22,806 nucleotides of DNA from a virus. The notes under the pieces were generated by a model. The model was not told the DNA's origin. It saw nothing but the letters and a program-made list of their open reading frames with translations, and searched no databases. Shown one piece after another: positions 1,885 to 22,735 of the stretch. Every line of letters begins with the position of its first letter. Position 1 is the stretch's first letter. Location of the stretch: IMG/VR virus record IMGVR_UViG_3300025890_000174, positions 1 through 22,806 of that record; one strand, 5' to 3'. The translations under genes and the position numbers were made by a program.

Positions 1885-3035
1885 TGGCTGAAGAAACCTA
1901 CCTCCAACAGACGCAGCAGCTTCTTCCCGAGTACCAAGAGTCGTTTCTCAAAAGCCTTTTGTTCTCGGCCTTTGATCCTTATGGCGGCTACGTTACCGAC
2001 GCGCAGGGCAACGTCCTACGCGAAGGTCGGCAAGGGGACGCTCTTGCAGAGGGAGAATCGTTCGTATCCCAGCCCACAGGGTTGGCGACCGAATCTCCTC
2101 TGTCCACGGTCCCCGAACAAACGCTGGCTAAGTTTGGTTATAAGGATCCACAAACTGGAGAAGTTAGTTACTCTGGGTTTACACCATCACAGACCGCAGC
2201 ATTGCAGTTGGGTGTGGGTCAGATTGGTGCGTACCAGCCTATGTTTGACTCGGCGTCCCAGACGTTTGCACAAGGGCTTGGCACTTATGGTGAAGCTGTG
2301 GACATGGCACGTCTTGGTGGTACAGCGCTTGCTGGCACTGCTGCCGAGTACGACCCTCAGTCATATCAGACATACTACGATCCCTTTGTGGAAGAGGTGA
2401 TCGACGAAACACAACGAGACATCGGAGACCAACAGCAACGTGAGTTGGCTCGGGTACGGGCTGGCGCGGTTGGCGCAGGGGCATTTGGTGGATCCCGTGG
2501 TGCGGTTGCAGAACAGGAACTGGCTCGGAACACTGCACGAGAGCAAGCTCGGGTTGGTGCACAGCTACGGTCCCAAGCCTACGGTCAGGCGCAGCAACAA
2601 GCGCAAGGCGCATTTGAGTCTGCACAGAAGCGTGGACAAAACGCTGCGCAGTTGTACGGCAACTTGGGTCAGGGGCTTGGATCTTTGGGTCAGGGTATGT
2701 TTGGTGCAGGCACCACACAGATGGCTGCGGGAGAAGCGACGCAGGCTGCGGGATCACGAGACGTAAACGCACTGTTTAACTTAGGCACATTGGAGCAGCA
2801 GCAATCACAAGCCGAGCTTGATGTGCAACGTTCCGCTGCCATGGAGAATGCGTATGAACCGTATCAACGTTTGGGCTTCTTGTCAGACATCTTCCGTGGT
2901 GTGCCATCGTTGTCAGGTTCTATGACCGCGGGTCTTGCTCCTACTAAAAACCCGACGCAAACATTCTTGGGGTACGGCATGGGGCTGTCAGGGTTACAGC
3001 AAGGTGGATATGGCGGAGTCTTTGGAGGTCAGTAA
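1884..3035 (+). CDS. Gln/Ala-rich virion protein, probable internal/ejection protein
   Basis: The protein has 383 residues. The central part (about 161-250) reads YYDPFVEEVIDETQRDI followed by a Gln/Arg/Ala-rich helical region with AGAFGGSRGAVAEQELARN, then repeated Gln/Ala heptad-like sequence. This pattern, a DP[YF]-V-V lead-in, a GAFGGSR turn and long Gln-rich helices, recurs in virion proteins of many phages and suggests a rod-like helical internal or tail protein. The C-terminus (about 340-383) is Gly-rich. It lies between two other low-complexity virion proteins and starts on a TAATG overlap. The specific structural role is unknown. Confidence 0.58.
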   Translation: MAEETYLQQTQQLLPEYQESFLKSLLFSAFDPYGGYVTDAQGNVLREGRQGDALAEGESFVSQPTGLATESPLSTVPEQTLAKFGYKDPQTGEVSYSGFTPSQTAALQLGVGQIGAYQPMFDSASQTFAQGLGTYGEAVDMARLGGTALAGTAAEYDPQSYQTYYDPFVEEVIDETQRDIGDQQQRELARVRAGAVGAGAFGGSRGAVAEQELARNTAREQARVGAQLRSQAYGQAQQQAQGAFESAQKRGQNAAQLYGNLGQGLGSLGQGMFGAGTTQMAAGEATQAAGSRDVNALFNLGTLEQQQSQAELDVQRSAAMENAYEPYQRLGFLSDIFRGVPSLSGSMTAGLAPTKNPTQTFLGYGMGLSGLQQGGYGGVFGGQ

Positions 3036-4483
3036 TGAACACACTTAATCGTCCTTTGTTTCAGAGATATGCACGTCGTCCCGCGCCACAGGGTCCAGTG
3101 GGGATTATGGCTTCCTCTCCTGAACTGATGCAAGCAGCAGCGCGGTATAACATTGGGGGTCTTGTAGAGCGAACCGACATTGATCCTTCAGAAATATTAA
3201 AGGGCGTTACGCCCATGCCCATGGTGCAACCAAATCCGATTGGGCAATTTGGTATGTTTCAAGCTCCAAAAAACACTACTCAACACCTTGAAGATATAGG
3301 AAATTCCGTTGGTGGAATACAAGAGGATATAAGGCGAGCAGGGGTTAACATAAATACTGCATCAGGAAATTTGGACACTGCCCGGTCTACGTTAGGAATA
3401 GAAGAACCATCGGGTGTTGATTTTGCTACGACTCAGCCTCTGCTGGGTAATGGGTTTGGTATTCCCGGGACGCCCGGGTACGGGCCCCCGGCGCTTGACC
3501 TCGATCCGATACAAACTACTACAAATTTGGCAGAGGGTGGCCCGGTACTCGGCTACAGAAGAGGGACCGTGGTGCAACCAACCGTGGACATCACCCAAGA
3601 GCCTATCGAGTTCCAAGAGACTGTGAGAACTCCGGGCAGTCGCGCTGGGGTGATAGTTGGAGAAACCACTGACAGTGCCGCAGCGGCACCAGATAACTCA
3701 GATGCGGATAAGTTAGCAAAGGCCGAAGAACTTGGGGCAAAGGCCGTTGAAGACGCACCGGAACCTGACAACAAACTTACGCCTTCTGAAGAGGCAGGAA
3801 AAATACTCGCAGGCATGGGTAAAGACGCACCCAAAGGAACCAAGGGAAAGATCGGTGCCATGAAGGATCTGATCAAAGAAACCTTTGGTGTAGATGCTTC
3901 TCGATACGACAACCTAAAAGCCTTGAACCGTGCAGCCGTGGGCTTTGCGATTGCGGAAGGCGGAGACATTGCCTCGGCACTCAAGCAGGGGGCAGCGGGG
4001 GCAGCGGCGATTGAAGAGAAGTCTTTGGCTCGTGATGACTCAATGTCCCAGATGGCTTTGCAACAAGTGTTTGCAGAGAAACTTGCAGGCATGAGGGCAT
4101 CTCGTTCGGGCGCGACGGATGGGTCTAACAAGTTCCGTAATCCTATCAATGCATTTCAAGATGCTTTGGAAAATGCTATGCGAATGGCTCAAGACGATGT
4201 GGTCGCAGCGCGTATTCGTAAGTCAGGGCAAACTATTGCGGAGTGGGCAGACGCACAAGCCCGTAACGTTGTAGCACAATCCTATACTCCTGATCAGTTA
4301 GTAGGCACTAGGTTTGCACAACCAGTCGAGGAAACAGACGCTGTTGACATTACCAAGCCAACTGCGACAGGCGGTGAAGAAACATCGGTCGATGTGCCTA
4401 CCACTCCGGGCGTCCGGTTTAGAGACAAAGAAACTGGTAAGATCATGGTCGTAGGGGAAGACGGCGTGGCTCGGGAGGAATAA
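3035..4483 (+). CDS. Virion-associated protein, low complexity, function unknown
   Basis: The protein has 482 residues and starts on TAATG. The N-terminus (RPLFQRYARRPAPQGPVGIMASSPELMQAA) is of a type often found on internal structural proteins of aquatic phages. Residues about 120-190 are Gly/Pro-rich. At about residue 199 there is a TPGSRAGVIVGE segment that recurs almost unchanged near the start of the next protein. Residues about 220-330 are charged and Ala-rich and probably helical; the acidic Thr/Val-rich tail ends in KIMVVGEDGVAREE. Placement directly before the giant internal protein suggests that they assemble together. No enzymatic motif was seen. Confidence 0.55.
   Translation: MNTLNRPLFQRYARRPAPQGPVGIMASSPELMQAAARYNIGGLVERTDIDPSEILKGVTPMPMVQPNPIGQFGMFQAPKNTTQHLEDIGNSVGGIQEDIRRAGVNINTASGNLDTARSTLGIEEPSGVDFATTQPLLGNGFGIPGTPGYGPPALDLDPIQTTTNLAEGGPVLGYRRGTVVQPTVDITQEPIEFQETVRTPGSRAGVIVGETTDSAAAAPDNSDADKLAKAEELGAKAVEDAPEPDNKLTPSEEAGKILAGMGKDAPKGTKGKIGAMKDLIKETFGVDASRYDNLKALNRAAVGFAIAEGGDIASALKQGAAGAAAIEEKSLARDDSMSQMALQQVFAEKLAGMRASRSGATDGSNKFRNPINAFQDALENAMRMAQDDVVAARIRKSGQTIAEWADAQARNVVAQSYTPDQLVGTRFAQPVEETDAVDITKPTATGGEETSVDVPTTPGVRFRDKETGKIMVVGEDGVAREE
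3629..3667 (+). repeat. TPGxRAGV segment, copy 1 (in the 482-residue virion gene)
   Basis: This stretch encodes TPGSRAGVIVGET. The next gene has TPGNRAGVVLGES at 4556-4594. The DNA is also alike: both begin ACTCCGGGCA, then TCGCGCTGG one base later, so this looks like a duplicated segment more than chance convergence. Confidence 0.6.
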
Positions 4484-7400
4484 ATGGCAGAAGGTCGATA
4501 TGAGATCCTACCTCCCAAAGAACCACGATACGAGATACTCCCCTCCACTGGAGCTACTCCGGGCAATCGCGCTGGAGTGGTGCTTGGAGAATCTGATTAC
4601 GACCCTACTGAATACGAAGGCGTAGCCCAAGAGTTTTTCGAGGGCGCATTCTCTGGTGGAACGAAGATCATACAAGGGGTTGCGGAGCTTGGCGCTCTGG
4701 CCTCGGATGCTGTTGCAGGGACAGACTACCACGAAGATTTGGTTCAGGGGTTTGAGGATTTCAGAGACAGACTTGGCCTTGATCCAATGGGAATTGCGGG
4801 GGCTATCAGTGAAGTAGGCGTACAGTTTGTTGTACCGGGGGCTTATGCTGCCAAGGGCATCCAAGCATTAAGCGCCGTAGCCAAGGCGGGGAAAGCAGGT
4901 AAGTTTATGGCGGGGCTTGGCGCTGCGGGGGTCGCGGATGCCGTCACTTCCACAAGCGACACTACCACCATTGGTGATTTTTTTGAGGGCGGACCCACAG
5001 AAACAACGGACCTAATTGGTCTGGAAGGCGAAGAGCGAGCACTAGAGGGCCTGATGAACAAGGCCAAAGTTGGACTGGAAGGGGCAGCGGGTATTGTTGC
5101 TGCGCCGTACATTGTTCGTGGTCTTAGCGCTACCGCAGGGGCCGCAGCCACCGCCGCTGGTCAGATACCTATCCTTACGCAAGCGGCTCGTGGGATTAAG
5201 GCTGGCGCAGAAAAGGTCGGGGGCAAACTCGCAGAGTTTGAAGAAGCAAAGCGCATGGGTGCGGAGCAAGGTGCGTTTAAAAATGGCGTGGCAGAAGCGT
5301 TGGCTACATTGCGGTATAGAGGCGTACTACCAGAGTCAGTTGCTGAATCTCGGTCCTTGATCCCGGGACTGACCGAAGCAGAAGTGAAAGCCGCGGATAG
5401 ATTAACCAACATATTAGACAAGCAACTTGATTTGTTAATGAAGAAGGCAAACAAAAAACTAGCGAAAGGCAGCAGGTTTGCTAAAGCAGACGCATACAAC
5501 GCCATCGACAAGTACCTGACAATGCCCGACAGAAAAGCCGCGGACGAACTGCTAAAGCAGTTTGATGAAGATATTGGCCTTACGTTGAAGACAATGCGCC
5601 GTCACTTAGATGAGTTGAGTACCAACATTCTGGAAAGTGATTTTCTCAAAAAGAATGACATGGTATCTAAAGACACAAAGAAGCTGCTGTCCGAAACCAT
5701 TCGAGGCAACCTTGGTTCGTACATGCGCAGGCGGTATCGTATTTTTGAAGACGCAGACTACAAACCCACAGACGAAGCGTTAGAGCAAGCCGCCTCTGGA
5801 TTTAAAGCTGACGCCGTTGCCGTGCAAGATGAACTGGCTAGAGTAGCTCAGAGCGCTCGGGATCCTAGAAGCGCACAAGACTTGGGACTTAGCGAAGACT
5901 TCAAACTACTTGGTCAGGTGACCGACGACCAAGCACGGATTGCCCGAGACAATTTCTTGGAACGCTATAAACGTCAGAGCAACAAGAAACCTTTTACAGG
6001 TATGGCTAAAGTAGCAGCCGATAAACTTAGGACAGATTTGTTTATCACACGGTCTAACCTAAAAGATTATCAAAAAGCTCTGCTCGGAGAAGTAAAGAAC
6101 CCACTGGAAAACTACGTCGCCACTGTGTCTGACATGGCGGAGTTCAACGCCGTGGATAACTACTTCGGAACCATACGCGCTGCGGCGGAGGCTGCGCCAG
6201 ATGGCATAGGTAAACTGTTCCGCAACACCGAAGGCATGTCCCCAGATCAAATCAAGATGATCGAAGAAGAAGGGTTCGTGGTCCTCGGTTCTGGAAGAGG
6301 CAGCAGTAAGGCTGACAAAACCAAGCCCGAAGACATCTTGGAGTCTGGGTGGGGTTCGCTGCATGGGTTCGCTGTTCCCGAACGGGTGTATCAGGATCTG
6401 ACGCGCAACGTTATTGGGGATACAGGTTGGCTAGGTAACAACCTTCGCTCGATATACTCTGGTTTTCTCCGTGTTAAAGGCGGCTCACAGTACGGTAAGA
6501 CCATCTTGTCCCCTATTACACAGATCCGAAATGTGACAACAGCAGTCGCTTTTGCTGCCGCGCAAGGCAACATAGGCAAGGGCGCAAACCTGTATGAGTC
6601 CTTGGCTCTGGTAATGAATAACCTACGCAAGATGCCACCTGAAGAAGCAGCCAAAGAGTACCAGAACCTGCTGAAGCTCGGTGTTGTAAACAGTCAAGCG
6701 GAGTTGCGCGAACTACAGGAACTGGTAGCCAAAGGGTTTGGTTACACTGACGAGAAAACCGTAGAAGGTCTTGCTGCCACCCGCAAGTTTGGGTCCAACC
6801 TTACCGACAACCCTATCCTCGGATTTTTACGGAACCGAGGTAAGAACGCAGAGAACTTCTACCAAGCTGGCGACGATATATGGAAGGTGTACAACTACAC
6901 GTTCGAAGGTAATAAGTTACGCAACGCCTTGGCTAAGATGACACCCGACCAGCAGTCGCAATACATCTTGCGTAAGTCTGGCAAGCCAATGTCCACCGAT
7001 GCGTTTATCCGAGAGGAAGCCGCCCGTGTGGTTCGCAACACAGTGCCGAACTATAACCTTGCACCCGAGGCTATCCGTGCATTGCGCCGTGCTCCAGTGG
7101 GTAACTTCATTGCTTTCCCTTACGAGATCATACGGACAGGGGTCAACACGATTGCCCGTGGCATCGATGAGTTGGCAGACCCCAACGTAGAGATCCAGAA
7201 GATTGGGCTGCGTCGTTTAACAGGGGCAATAACCACGTTTGGCGCACTGCCAGAAGGGGTATCTTCTCTAGGGTACAGTGTTTCCGGCGTCTCCAAAGAA
7301 GAGATGGACGCGTACCAAGATTCTCTTGCTACACCGTGGGAGAAGAACGCACGTCTGGTTCCGATTGGTCGCCACGAGGACGGCACACCAAAGTACATCA

Positions 7401-8548
7401 ACTACAGCTACTCGAACCCATACGACATGCTTGAGCGCACCACGATTGCAGCCATAAATACCTACGAACGAGGTATGCGGGACGGTAAGTCAACAGCGCA
7501 GATTGTGTTTGAGGCCGCGGGTTCTTCTTTAGAGGAGCTTTTTGATCCATTTTTAACAGAATCAATAGCACTGGCAGCGATGAGAGATGTTCTCCCAGAG
7601 GCCGATAGTGATGTACCTTTGTTGAAATATGCGTCTCAGCTTATTGGCACTCGGGGCGGTAAAACAATTACGGGTGCAAAGATCTACAACCCAGAAGACA
7701 ACGCAGGGGACAAAGCCGCCAAGTCGTTTGCTCACCTTGCTGATACGCTTTTGCCTGCGTTCATCCCCATAGATGAAAGTGGCGGGAAGATCGAGCCAAG
7801 TCGTTTTGCCCGTGGGGTTATCAACGGTTTGGATTTAAACGAAACACTGGGCATCAGCGAGAAAGATCGTATGCACCGGGTGCGAGATCTGTCTCAGGAA
7901 CTTGCTCGTGCTTTCTCTGGCATCACAGAGTCTGATTCCCAAGCATCTACTTCCTTGAGGTATAAAGGCTATGAGTTTTCCCAAAGGCGCGAAAATTCTG
8001 CTAATATATTTAACTCTATAGCTCGTCGTCCAAACGTAACACGAGACATGCTTATTGATGCGTATGACGATGCCAATGAAGCTAAGTTCAGAGCACATCG
8101 AGATTTCTATCAAGTCATGGAAGATGTAAAAAAGTTTGGCATGGAGGACGAGGATATCCTCCGCGTATTAAAAGAAGCTGGGGTTGGCGGCGCTAAAGCG
8201 TTGATTGCAGGAATTTACGTCCCGTATAAAATAGGCAAAAGTGTTTTAGGTGAGATGGCTCGTAATGATACAATTGATCTAATTCCATATGACTACATTG
8301 ATGATGTAACGTTACGGGACATCGACCGTTCGTTTGATCAACCCTTACCCACGGAACAAGAACCACGTTATGAGATTTTGCCCCCCGCAAAAGAACCACG
8401 TTATGAGATTTTGCCTCCGCTACAACAAGAAGGATCACTCCAAGTTCCGACAGGCCCTGTTCGCACGGCTGCGGTAAGTCCAGCGTTGCTGGGCGACAAC
8501 CCAATCGATGTCGCCCGGAACATGGAGATTGCTACAGCGTCTCGATAG
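4484..8548 (+). CDS. Giant internal virion protein (1354 residues)
   Basis: This is the largest gene in the window and ends the rightward late block. Its ATG directly follows the upstream TAA, with GGGAGG just upstream as ribosome binding site. The N-terminus has two RYEILP[PS] motifs (residues 5-21) and then the TPGNRAGVVLGES segment. Residues about 100-230 are Ala/Gly-rich and hydrophobic, possibly membrane-active. The middle is charged and helical. A conserved-looking region includes SPITQIRNVTTAVAFAAAQG and DIWKVYNYTFEGNKLRNALA. The C-terminus has two more PRYEILPP copies, then SPALLGDNPIDVARNMEIA. Size and position match ejection proteins of short-tailed phages (compare T7 gp16), which enter the cell with the DNA. 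I see no clear lysozyme or transglycosylase motif. Family assignment is by size, composition and context. Confidence 0.66.
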   Translation: MAEGRYEILPPKEPRYEILPSTGATPGNRAGVVLGESDYDPTEYEGVAQEFFEGAFSGGTKIIQGVAELGALASDAVAGTDYHEDLVQGFEDFRDRLGLDPMGIAGAISEVGVQFVVPGAYAAKGIQALSAVAKAGKAGKFMAGLGAAGVADAVTSTSDTTTIGDFFEGGPTETTDLIGLEGEERALEGLMNKAKVGLEGAAGIVAAPYIVRGLSATAGAAATAAGQIPILTQAARGIKAGAEKVGGKLAEFEEAKRMGAEQGAFKNGVAEALATLRYRGVLPESVAESRSLIPGLTEAEVKAADRLTNILDKQLDLLMKKANKKLAKGSRFAKADAYNAIDKYLTMPDRKAADELLKQFDEDIGLTLKTMRRHLDELSTNILESDFLKKNDMVSKDTKKLLSETIRGNLGSYMRRRYRIFEDADYKPTDEALEQAASGFKADAVAVQDELARVAQSARDPRSAQDLGLSEDFKLLGQVTDDQARIARDNFLERYKRQSNKKPFTGMAKVAADKLRTDLFITRSNLKDYQKALLGEVKNPLENYVATVSDMAEFNAVDNYFGTIRAAAEAAPDGIGKLFRNTEGMSPDQIKMIEEEGFVVLGSGRGSSKADKTKPEDILESGWGSLHGFAVPERVYQDLTRNVIGDTGWLGNNLRSIYSGFLRVKGGSQYGKTILSPITQIRNVTTAVAFAAAQGNIGKGANLYESLALVMNNLRKMPPEEAAKEYQNLLKLGVVNSQAELRELQELVAKGFGYTDEKTVEGLAATRKFGSNLTDNPILGFLRNRGKNAENFYQAGDDIWKVYNYTFEGNKLRNALAKMTPDQQSQYILRKSGKPMSTDAFIREEAARVVRNTVPNYNLAPEAIRALRRAPVGNFIAFPYEIIRTGVNTIARGIDELADPNVEIQKIGLRRLTGAITTFGALPEGVSSLGYSVSGVSKEEMDAYQDSLATPWEKNARLVPIGRHEDGTPKYINYSYSNPYDMLERTTIAAINTYERGMRDGKSTAQIVFEAAGSSLEELFDPFLTESIALAAMRDVLPEADSDVPLLKYASQLIGTRGGKTITGAKIYNPEDNAGDKAAKSFAHLADTLLPAFIPIDESGGKIEPSRFARGVINGLDLNETLGISEKDRMHRVRDLSQELARAFSGITESDSQASTSLRYKGYEFSQRRENSANIFNSIARRPNVTRDMLIDAYDDANEAKFRAHRDFYQVMEDVKKFGMEDEDILRVLKEAGVGGAKALIAGIYVPYKIGKSVLGEMARNDTIDLIPYDYIDDVTLRDIDRSFDQPLPTEQEPRYEILPPAKEPRYEILPPLQQEGSLQVPTGPVRTAAVSPALLGDNPIDVARNMEIATASR
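4496..4546 (+). repeat. N-terminal pair of RYEILPP-type motifs
   Basis: Two copies encode GRYEILPP and PRYEILPS, ten residues (30 bp) apart. Their codons differ from each other and from the C-terminal pair (for example ATC CTA versus ATA CTC for Ile-Leu), so the peptide is kept although the DNA has drifted. Confidence 0.85.
4556..4594 (+). repeat. TPGxRAGV segment, copy 2 (start of the giant virion gene)
   Basis: It encodes TPGNRAGVVLGES at residues 25-37 of the giant protein and matches 3629-3667 of the preceding gene at protein and DNA level. Confidence 0.6.
8358..8421 (+). repeat. C-terminal pair of PRYEILPP motifs, 33-bp direct repeat
   Basis: A perfect 25-bp repeat lies at 8358-8382 and 8391-8415 (period 33 bp, 11 residues). 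Both copies encode EPRYEILPP. The identity of the two DNA copies points to a recent duplication, unlike the N-terminal pair. Confidence 0.88.
8489..8518. other. Inverted repeat at the convergent gene junction
   Basis: GGGCGACA (8491-8498) and TGTCGCCC (8509-8516) form an 8-bp perfect stem with a 10-nt loop, extendable on the rightward transcript by a U-G and a C-G pair. It lies inside the last codons of the giant virion gene, 15 bp before the tail-to-tail overlap with the leftward block. There is no T-tract on either strand, so a factor-independent terminator is unlikely, but the position suits transcript-end structure or a pause site. Confidence 0.45.
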
Positions 8549-21507: not shown

Positions 21508-21546
21508 AACTATTTCCTTCCTTAGTTACTTGTTGAACACATGCAA

Positions 21547-21573
21547 GTTATAGCATATCAGTGCAGTTGTCAA
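21547..21573 (-). promoter_or_regulatory. Leftward promoter candidate for the small-gene block
   Basis: Read leftward, TTGACA (21573-21568) is followed after 15 bp by TATAAC (21552-21547). The -35 is perfect for a sigma-70-type promoter; the 15-bp spacer is shorter than the usual 16-18. It sits about 40 bp before the first gene of the block. Confidence 0.6.
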
Positions 21574-21586
21574 GAACCTCGGTTCT
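21573..21586. promoter_or_regulatory. Operator-like palindrome touching the leftward -35
   Basis: AGAACC-TC-GGTTCT is a 6-2-6 palindrome directly adjoining (one base shared with) the TTGACA of the leftward promoter. This position suits a repressor or activator site. It is the only such palindrome noted here. Confidence 0.55.
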
Positions 21587-21658
21587 CGGACCTGAGTTAC
21601 ACTATAGCGCATTCTCCAGAGATTTTTTATTTTTTATTTTTTTTCATCCGAATTTACC

Positions 21659-21744
21659 GTATCCACCGTATCCAAACGTATCCCACCCTTATTTATATGC
21701 CTCGTACAGCCCAAGGCTGGATACAACTGGTTACGTTTGGATAC
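21659..21744. repeat. Cluster of five GTATCC boxes with a 13-bp inverted repeat
   Basis: GTATCC occurs at 21659, 21668 and 21678 (9 and 10 bp steps) and in inverse orientation (GGATAC) at 21719 and 21739 (20 bp step). Within them, GTATCCAAACGTA (21668-21680) is repeated perfectly in inverse at 21732-21744. Spacing near one or two helical turns places the boxes on one face of the DNA, as for cooperative protein binding. Confidence 0.75.
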
Positions 21745-21777
21745 ACTTCTCTGGAAAAAACCCCCTATATAGGAAAG

Positions 21778-21804
21778 TTGTCAAACACTTTCGCTTGGTA
21801 TAAA
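21778..21804 (+). promoter_or_regulatory. Rightward promoter candidate for the packaging genes
   Basis: TTGTCA (21778-21783), a 15-bp spacer and TATAAA (21799-21804) form a sigma-70-like promoter ending 27 bp before the terminase start codon. Its spacer equals that of the leftward candidate. It lies just downstream of the GTATCC boxes, which could regulate it. Confidence 0.58.
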
Positions 21805-21831
21805 TTGTTGGCAAGGCACAACGAGGAAGAC

Positions 21832-22392
21832 ATGGCAGCAGTAGAAAAAATCAACGGCAGACAGCTAACAAACCGCCAGAAAACATTTGCTAGGCATATT
21901 GTAGAAGGCATTTATTCCAACGCTGAATGTGCAAGGAAAGCAGGATACTCCACTGACGTGGCATCCAAGCAGGCATCAGTGTTGCTGAATGGCAGAGACT
22001 ACCCACACGTTCTGGAATATGTGCAGGAGCTTCGAACCGAGCGAGAGAGACGGTATGGTGTGACCACTATCGGGCAACTCGAACGGCTGCATCAACTGTC
22101 TCTTGGTGCGGAGGACGCGGGTCAATTCTCCGCCGCTATCAACGCAGAAAAAATCCGCGCTGCTCTGGGCGGCTTGACTGTTGATAGGCGAGAACAAATC
22201 AACTCCATAGATCAGATGTCAAGGGATGAGATCACCTCTCGTTTGGCGGCGCTGCAAAAGCAGTACCCCCAAGCCTTTGTGATCGATGGCACAGCAAAGG
22301 ATATCACACCGGATGAGCAAGGGACCGGAGGCGAACTTTTGGCAATCGATCAGGTCGAACCTGCCCAAGAATTGCTTCGCGACGAGGATTGA
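21832..22392 (+). CDS. terS: Terminase small subunit
   Basis: The 186-residue protein recognises phage DNA and recruits the packaging motor. The N-terminal part reads LTNRQKTFARHIVEGIYSNAECARKAGYSTDVASKQASVLLN, in pieces matching the Terminase_2-type pattern LT.RQ..F..hyv.G.sna.A..kAGYs...A...as.LL. The middle (about 65-125) is helical and would form the oligomerisation region. The C-terminus is acidic and Gly-rich. I chose ATG 21832 (GAGG five bases upstream) because the in-frame extension to 21541 encodes low-complexity sequence across the control region. The large subunit is not in the window; it presumably follows. Confidence 0.82.
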   Translation: MAAVEKINGRQLTNRQKTFARHIVEGIYSNAECARKAGYSTDVASKQASVLLNGRDYPHVLEYVQELRTERERRYGVTTIGQLERLHQLSLGAEDAGQFSAAINAEKIRAALGGLTVDRREQINSIDQMSRDEITSRLAALQKQYPQAFVIDGTAKDITPDEQGTGGELLAIDQVEPAQELLRDED

Positions 22393-22735
22393 GAACAAGC
22401 ACGGTGGCGGTGTGCCTGATGTACACCTAGTGTGGGACGGCCTTCCGTTCTGGCTGGAACTCAAGGTAAGCAAAGGTACGCGGGTAAATATCTCGCCTCA
22501 TCAAATCGCTTGGCACATGGCATATTACGCTCGCGGAGGGTCGAGTTTCTTCTTAGTAAAGAGGGCCAAGGAGCGTGATATAGTTTTATTTGGGGGGGAT
22601 CAGGGGCCCGAGGTGCTGGAAAAAGGGTGCTCTGCGCCCTGCGTCCTGCGGACCTGCGGCCCTGCGTCTTTGTTCGAGGGCCTGCGCCCTATTTTAGAGG
22701 CGCGTGTGCCTGCGGCCCTGCGTCCTGCGCCCTAG
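22313..22735 (+). CDS. VRR-NUC-type endonuclease (PD-(D/E)XK fold)
   Basis: A 140-residue nuclease that starts inside the terminase gene (80-nt overlap). Residues 26-51 read IENKHGGGVPD (catalytic D36) and FWLELK (E49, K51), followed by SPHQIAWH (Q64), the VRR-NUC arrangement common in phage proteins next to terminase genes. It may cut branched DNA before packaging or act as packaging partner. ATG 22313 is preferred to 22286 since AAAGGA lies upstream, though at 11 bases. The last about 35 residues are encoded by a CTGCG-rich repeat region and look added or degenerate; the family core ends near LFGGDQGPEVLEKG. Confidence 0.84.
   Translation: MSKGPEANFWQSIRSNLPKNCFATRIENKHGGGVPDVHLVWDGLPFWLELKVSKGTRVNISPHQIAWHMAYYARGGSSFFLVKRAKERDIVLFGGDQGPEVLEKGCSAPCVLRTCGPASLFEGLRPILEARVPAALRPAP
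22632..22729 (+). repeat. CTGCG-rich repeat array at the end of the nuclease gene
   Basis: CTGCG occurs nine times in 98 bp. The 16-mer CCTGCGGCCCTGCGTC is present exactly at 22653-22668 and 22709-22724. Composition is far more GC-rich than the surroundings and the repeat runs in different frames, so it is a DNA-level repeat and not a protein motif. Confidence 0.8.

Follow-up and report, generated by a model that had tools for sequence, protein, structure and literature searches.

In the ejected tunnel of phage T7, an N-terminal 'molecular tape' of gp16 stabilises the flexible C-terminal region of gp15 (PMC8954989), and in the virion core gp15 is arranged as an eight-fold ring and gp16 as a four-fold ring (PMC11784390). 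Little is understood of how ejection proteins recognise each other within the capsid, or of their re-assembly in the envelope, since these proteins diverge fast and offer few recognisable domains. To our knowledge, neither tandem terminal peptides nor swappable classes have been described for T7. In the polyketide and peptide megasynthases, on the other hand, protein pairing is set by docking domains, which are matched small elements at C-ends and N-ends that fall into several classes. The stretch of DNA analysed here (the window) is a 22,806-base virus record from IMG/VR, and its structural module comprises, in order, a tail/virion protein (phrog_3287), small proteins, and proteins of 279, 383, 482 and 1354 aa, the 383-aa one matching phrog_4287 'DNA ejection protein'; downstream of the last gene lie replication genes on the opposite strand. 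This order, in which phrog_3287, small genes and phrog_4287 precede the 482-aa 'mid' and the 1354-aa 'giant' protein, fits that of T7, where gp15 and gp16 are likewise large late proteins that stand next to each other and are preceded by a smaller ejection protein, and the T7 contact is at the same kind of junction, joining the C-end of the middle protein to the N-end of the giant one. Homology to gp15 or gp16 was not found with PHROGs, Pfam or a PDB sequence search, which returned only phrog_22602 and weak, unrelated PDB matches, and the lytic transglycosylase domain that characterises gp16 is absent by Pfam from the N-terminus of the giant protein, which is the motif region instead. We therefore do not claim membership of the T7 family, only that the pair may work like it. 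Elsewhere in the window, a gene resembling that of a terminase small subunit (21541-22392) shares its end, in another frame, with a small nuclease-like protein (22286-22735; phrog_2165/phrog_93 matches). The features with which we are concerned are as follows.

4484 to 8548, plus strand: giant virion protein of 1354 aa, bearing four motif copies (phrog_22602, 'virion structural protein')
4496 to 4516, plus strand: N-terminal motif copy 1, RYEILPP
4526 to 4546, plus strand: N-terminal motif copy 2, RYEILPS
8366 to 8386, plus strand: C-terminal motif copy 3, RYEILPP
8399 to 8419, plus strand: C-terminal motif copy 4, RYEILPP
3035 to 4483, plus strand: preceding ('mid') protein of 482 aa, candidate partner, with no PHROG or Pfam match
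4400 to 4480, plus strand: C-terminal tail of the mid protein, TTPGVRFRDKETGKIMVVGEDGVAREE, candidate socket, which co-varies with motif class and has predicted short beta strands (pLDDT ~85)

The giant protein contains exactly four copies of RYEILP, at residues 5, 15, 1295 and 1306 (nt 4496, 4526, 8366 and 8399), just as the initial annotation had it: two at each end and none between. No further copy occurs in the window in any of the six frames, and a random protein of the same composition would be expected to hold 5e-5. The annotation was also right that the two N-terminal copies are written in unlike codons (CGATATGAGATCCTACCTCCC and CGATACGAGATACTCCCCTCC), while the C-terminal pair has 25 bp in common at the DNA level (AAGAACCACGTTATGAGATTTTGCC); its placement of that pair 20-60 residues before the C-terminus was correct in kind and slightly wide in range, the copies starting 60 and 49 residues from the end. 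Tandem Repeats Finder reported no tandem repeat arrays. The body of the protein matches the phrog_22602 profile over residues 517-991 (E 3.8e-19), a match found in all 13 of 13 proteins when the giant protein is taken with the 12 relatives aligned with it, and Pfam domains were not found in it. Over the same residues it is homologous to gp123 of Cellulophaga phage phi18:3 (phrog_22602), a virion protein by MS/MS in which, unlike in the window protein, matching end motifs are not seen. Nor are matched end motifs evident in the closest cultured relatives by local identity (about 30-32%), phage 023Pt_psg01 and Pelagibacter phage HTVC027P. Mid and giant protein also have a further peptide in common, TPG(S/N)RAGV(I/V)(V/L)GE, with a single copy in each (3629-3664 and 4556-4591, the latter just after the N-terminal motifs); the giant protein of relative L001 has it too.

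Among a first set of 34 relatives (L-numbers denote their loci), closely similar bodies carry unlike peptides, and the N-end and C-end peptides agree within each protein. For example, giant proteins whose bodies are 83-85% identical bear LFGVPV or EFVPQP in place of RYEILP. The classes in this first set are distributed as follows.

RYEILPP: window, L010/L011; L021, whose sequence covers only the C end; RYKILPP in L018
LFGVPV or MFGEPV: L001, L004, L006, L008
EFVPQPY: L007; L003, whose sequence covers only the C end
FEIIDPGTP: L005, L013, L020
LPPGFVPVT: L009, L019
FNPRFQ: L023, whose sequence covers only the C end

The switch between classes is local, since flanking genes are conserved between phages of unlike class: in comparisons of the window with L001 and with L007, identity is 91-98% for the 383-aa protein and 95-100% for the four proteins that precede it, and between L007 and L010 the polymerase, helicases and their neighbours are 99-100% identical. 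In the scanned loci each phage's motif is confined to the giant protein, the only exception being a short antisense ORF in L026 with one match. A random scatter of the motif through unrelated proteins, which would have spoken against docking, is not what a PRYEILPP scan of IMG/VR returned: it gave 10 stretches, six of them in the giant-protein family, two in an identical 29-aa ORF and two in isolated unrelated ORFs. Many relatives do lack PRYEILPP, an outcome that the initial annotation had counted against its reading, but they carry another matched motif at the same places, and this favours docking rather than refuting it. Two further observations concern the same relatives. An insert of ~150 aa, found in two clades (L010/L011, L020 and L021) at a site equivalent to window residue ~831 and missing from the window, has a pattern (VYRVG...SYTLNP...GEDEIII) that recalls ADP-ribosyltransferases, with no Pfam match. 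In addition, three consecutive proteins, possibly tail-fibre genes, are just 49-55% identical between L001 (9527-12884) and L007 (7035-10343), in a structural module otherwise largely 92-99% identical, and these vary along with motif class there.

What, then, changes with the motif? The mid protein taken whole is not a marker of class, since its similarity ignores class (the L010 mid protein is closest to that of L007, which belongs to another class), and we rejected it as such. Its final ~30 residues do follow the motif: RYEILP pairs with the tail TTPGVRFRDKETGKIMVVGEDG, FGxP with EYDALPPGSEFIQNGQKRKKP and FxPxP with a helix-hairpin tail, HQQANDAAKEKGEPFYTLDGKKFKVQ. Wider scans brought the collection to 183 usable loci, which after a redundancy filter left 78 complete proteins, 75 of them with a readable mid tail. 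In this larger set RYEILP recurs with the same tail in L119 and L131, at a body identity of about 36%, and FGxP recurs with its own tail in L116, L176, L107 and L143. For bodies less than 45% identical, a Mantel comparison of giant-protein N-terminus with mid tail gave r=0.52 (0/5000 permutations, permutation maximum 0.15), against 0.03 for the mid body (533/5000) and, for the gene before mid, 0.08 for its C-tail (105/5000) and 0.07 for its body (208/5000). With values of 0.03-0.08, both of these controls were ruled out as co-varying partners for distant pairs. At body identities of at least 45% every gene correlates somewhat, as shared ancestry predicts, and the mid tail is again the highest (0.78 vs 0.27-0.45). 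On a FastTree tree of the bodies there are at least 43 changes of N label and at least 41 of tail label, and independent pairs on the tree agree in 7/7 cases for FGxP, 6/6 for FxPxP and 3/3 for RYEILP, and no contrary pair is among those listed; these class patterns were defined after inspection, and the Mantel and shuffle tests are independent of them. An additional scan supplied 15 new usable pairs, a held-out set that is supportive but small: six have a similar tail in a distant phage, and by eye all six share the motif class of that phage, in a small test that includes the close kin L238 and L239; their N-similarity ranks were 2, 2, 5, 14, 2 and 10 of 61-66. The elements themselves are kept at the protein level rather than recently copied, because most codons have changed: the N ends of the window and L119 have 19/23 residues in common and identical codons at only 8/18 conserved residues, and the tails likewise at 8/18. 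Pfam and PHROGs matched the mini-domains to no named family; against Pfam Phage_tail_C (PF24243) the FGxP-type tails reach 14-15 bits, for a cut-off of 23.7, and the window tail has no match.

The far end of the giant protein mostly tells the same story. Both ends bear the same class in 45 of 56 scorable phages, against an off-class background of 1.7%, with another class at the C end in four phages and no matching C copy in 11/56; a protein's own N end scores 42.5 against its own C end, compared with 25.5 when shuffled (0/20000). Moreover, one phage's N motif recurs in the C end of a distant phage where their tails are alike (0.256 vs 0.130, 0/1000). Two exceptions are instructive: L122 has GLSxTPP and its tail at the N end and RYEVLPP at the C end, and L239 has LFGVPV with its tail and then NPFLSP. 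Both resemble swaps at the junction with a lagging C end, and in each the mid tail fits the N end. The two-ended pattern is thus usual, not universal; what stays constant is the match between tail and N-terminus. The same element at both ends is not limited to short peptides, because the L101 giant protein has a helical-hairpin-like element at each end. The original proposal of a docking motif that ties both ends to one partner accordingly gains partial, indirect support from co-variation, short of universality; rather than portal or capsid, which it listed along with core protein, the partner best supported is the C-terminal tail of the preceding protein (3035-4483).

At the level of sequence, the roles are reversed in some relatives. 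Here the N end of the giant protein has no short motif and starts MPTYSIQGPDGKTYSIEGPEGATREQ... instead, which we read from its sequence as a beta-beta-alpha unit, and the C-end of the mid protein is a short peptide of the form G-(F/W/Y/I)-x-(V/I/L/E) (7/8 vs 0/67 others; Fisher p 4e-9, for a pattern picked after inspection). A tblastn search retrieved eight complete phage genomes in which a gene with a predicted beta-beta-alpha N-terminus comes right after a gene for a peptide-ending protein, the ends being GGYKIIGVK, SGWKVERMD, PGWSVEVSP, AGWSVKVK, GSGEWTVKEKK, TGSWGIREIK, DGYTIEQVD and SQFKVIR; seven of the eight fit G-aromatic-x-V/I closely and the last loosely. Several of these pairs lie within annotated ejection modules (DNA injection protein, lytic transglycosylase, or a place beside an internal virion protein). 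Podophages that show this junction include Ochrobactrum phage OH (p38/p37, with p38 ending in GGYKIIGVK), Microcystis phage Mvi-Yong1342-1, Stenotrophomonas phage BUCT555, Thiohalocapsa phage MD04 and isolate ct7QV12. In these podophage modules a G-(W/Y)-x-(V/I) ending, or a near variant of it, comes before a beta-beta-alpha start, which is the pattern of the reversed family members L115, L127 and L194; unlike the window, they carry the peptide on the upstream protein and lack RYEILP, and kinship of the bodies is not demonstrated. We also saw a mid C-end 'YPN...LxxxY' together with giant-protein (N/D)PF motifs in L112, L130, L258, L261, L269 and L271, and a giant-protein N-end 'YPMYSDKSDDxLVxGY' with a mid C-end DPLxL in L079 and L092, and these two types are possibly a homologous pair in reversed roles. 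Searches by tblastn with the helical-hairpin and YPN-type elements gave no matches in the phage collection, and matches to the YDALPPG tail were disregarded (E >= 1).

We think it probable that two adjacent core/ejection proteins are joined by an exchangeable docking pair of peptide and domain, and it is from the patterns above that we infer binding. The last ~25-40 residues of the mid protein would form a small domain, a short beta-strand tail in the window phage, that would bind the tandem peptides at the giant protein N-terminus and also their counterparts close to its C-terminus, which most phages have. Both ends of the giant protein would then be held by subunits of a mid-protein ring, and this might take place in the capsid, in the ejected conduit or in both, if these are indeed ejection proteins of the T7 gp15/gp16 kind. 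Each phage would have one specificity class; classes would move between phages as a small cassette, made up of the mid tail and the giant-protein N-terminus, while the bodies stay; the C-terminal copy would usually follow; and in some lineages it would be the giant protein that carries the domain and the mid protein that carries the peptide. Tandem peptides would be compatible with a 2:1 subunit ratio, which is speculation on our part. Reading the mid stop codon as Gly yields natural tail-motif fusions for the window and some relatives, where this stop shares its frame with the start codon that follows. In AlphaFold predictions the tail of the RYEILP-type fusion folds into three short strands (pLDDT ~85) and its peptides stay unplaced (pTM 0.39), and the FVPIP-type fusion has a helix and hairpin (pLDDT ~87), its first peptide forming just a two-residue strand (pTM 0.50). 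Structure prediction against the neighbouring virion protein, as suggested at the outset, thus makes it plausible that mid tails are small folded units, but docking gains no support from the fusions.

One competing idea is that the mid/giant junction is a recombination hot spot, where tail and N motif travel together without touching. The two lie within ~200 bp of each other in the DNA, and the bodies and neighbouring genes do not move along with them, so linkage alone could yield their pairing. However, the C-terminal copy is ~4 kb away and still matches in 45/56 phages, and across distant phages with like tails; tail and motif pairs persist though most codons have changed; and unrelated phages have reversed pairs of another kind at such junctions. 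Agreement at the C end and role reversal speak for function and against linkage alone, which we consider unlikely. A similarly low probability attaches to the idea that both ends bind another virion or assembly protein (portal, scaffold or head protein) and that the mid tail separately binds this same third partner. Head and packaging genes lie outside the contig, and the co-variation test spans the mid protein and the gene before it; but the comparable upstream structural proteins are 95-100% identical (383-aa protein, 91-98%) in the window, L001 and L007, which have three unlike classes, and the reversal of roles between mid and giant protein is hard to account for in this way.

The initial annotation had also allowed for a processing role, which we found to be without support. 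Motifs that serve as processing or encapsidation signals, and change along with a protease or packaging machinery, would suit terminal placement, and in P1 the case of DdrB is a precedent for giant virion proteins of other phages being processed before packaging (PMC5512222). Against this, there are 2-4 copies per end-pair, their compositions are very unlike (RYEILPP, LFGVPV, NPYLNL) and do not suggest sites for a single protease, and class follows the mid tail, which makes such signals very improbable. Least credible of all are neutral short repeats kept through slippage or gene conversion between the ends: the copies are short and tandem, and the C-terminal pair is DNA-identical over 25 bp, but N and C copies use unlike codons, and RYEILP with its tail persists at ~36% body identity after most codons have changed.

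Returning to the docking pair, there is a bolder version of it, to which we would give about an even chance: that podophages possess a modular docking code of ~20 peptide:mini-domain classes, swapped as cassettes and reversible, with one socket holding both ends of the giant protein. If true, the code would keep the ejection proteins of co-infecting phages unmixed and set core assembly. Being readable from sequence, it would predict partners in uncultured phages, supply small pairs suited to binding and structural studies, and account for the exchange of ejection-module parts that stay matched; and cultured phages with the G-aromatic peptide and beta-beta-alpha pair make it directly testable. 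The docking domains of megasynthases work like the mid/giant pair, as a functional analogue, in that the C-end and N-end elements of the window family co-vary in classes. The phage proteins are unrelated to megasynthases, and in them the peptide class is found also at the partner's far end and the roles are reversible. In the open-access papers searched we found no prior report of a swappable, reversible, multi-class docking code in this setting. Docking pairs elsewhere, and a contact at this very place in T7, are already known; the swappable and reversible code is the new part.
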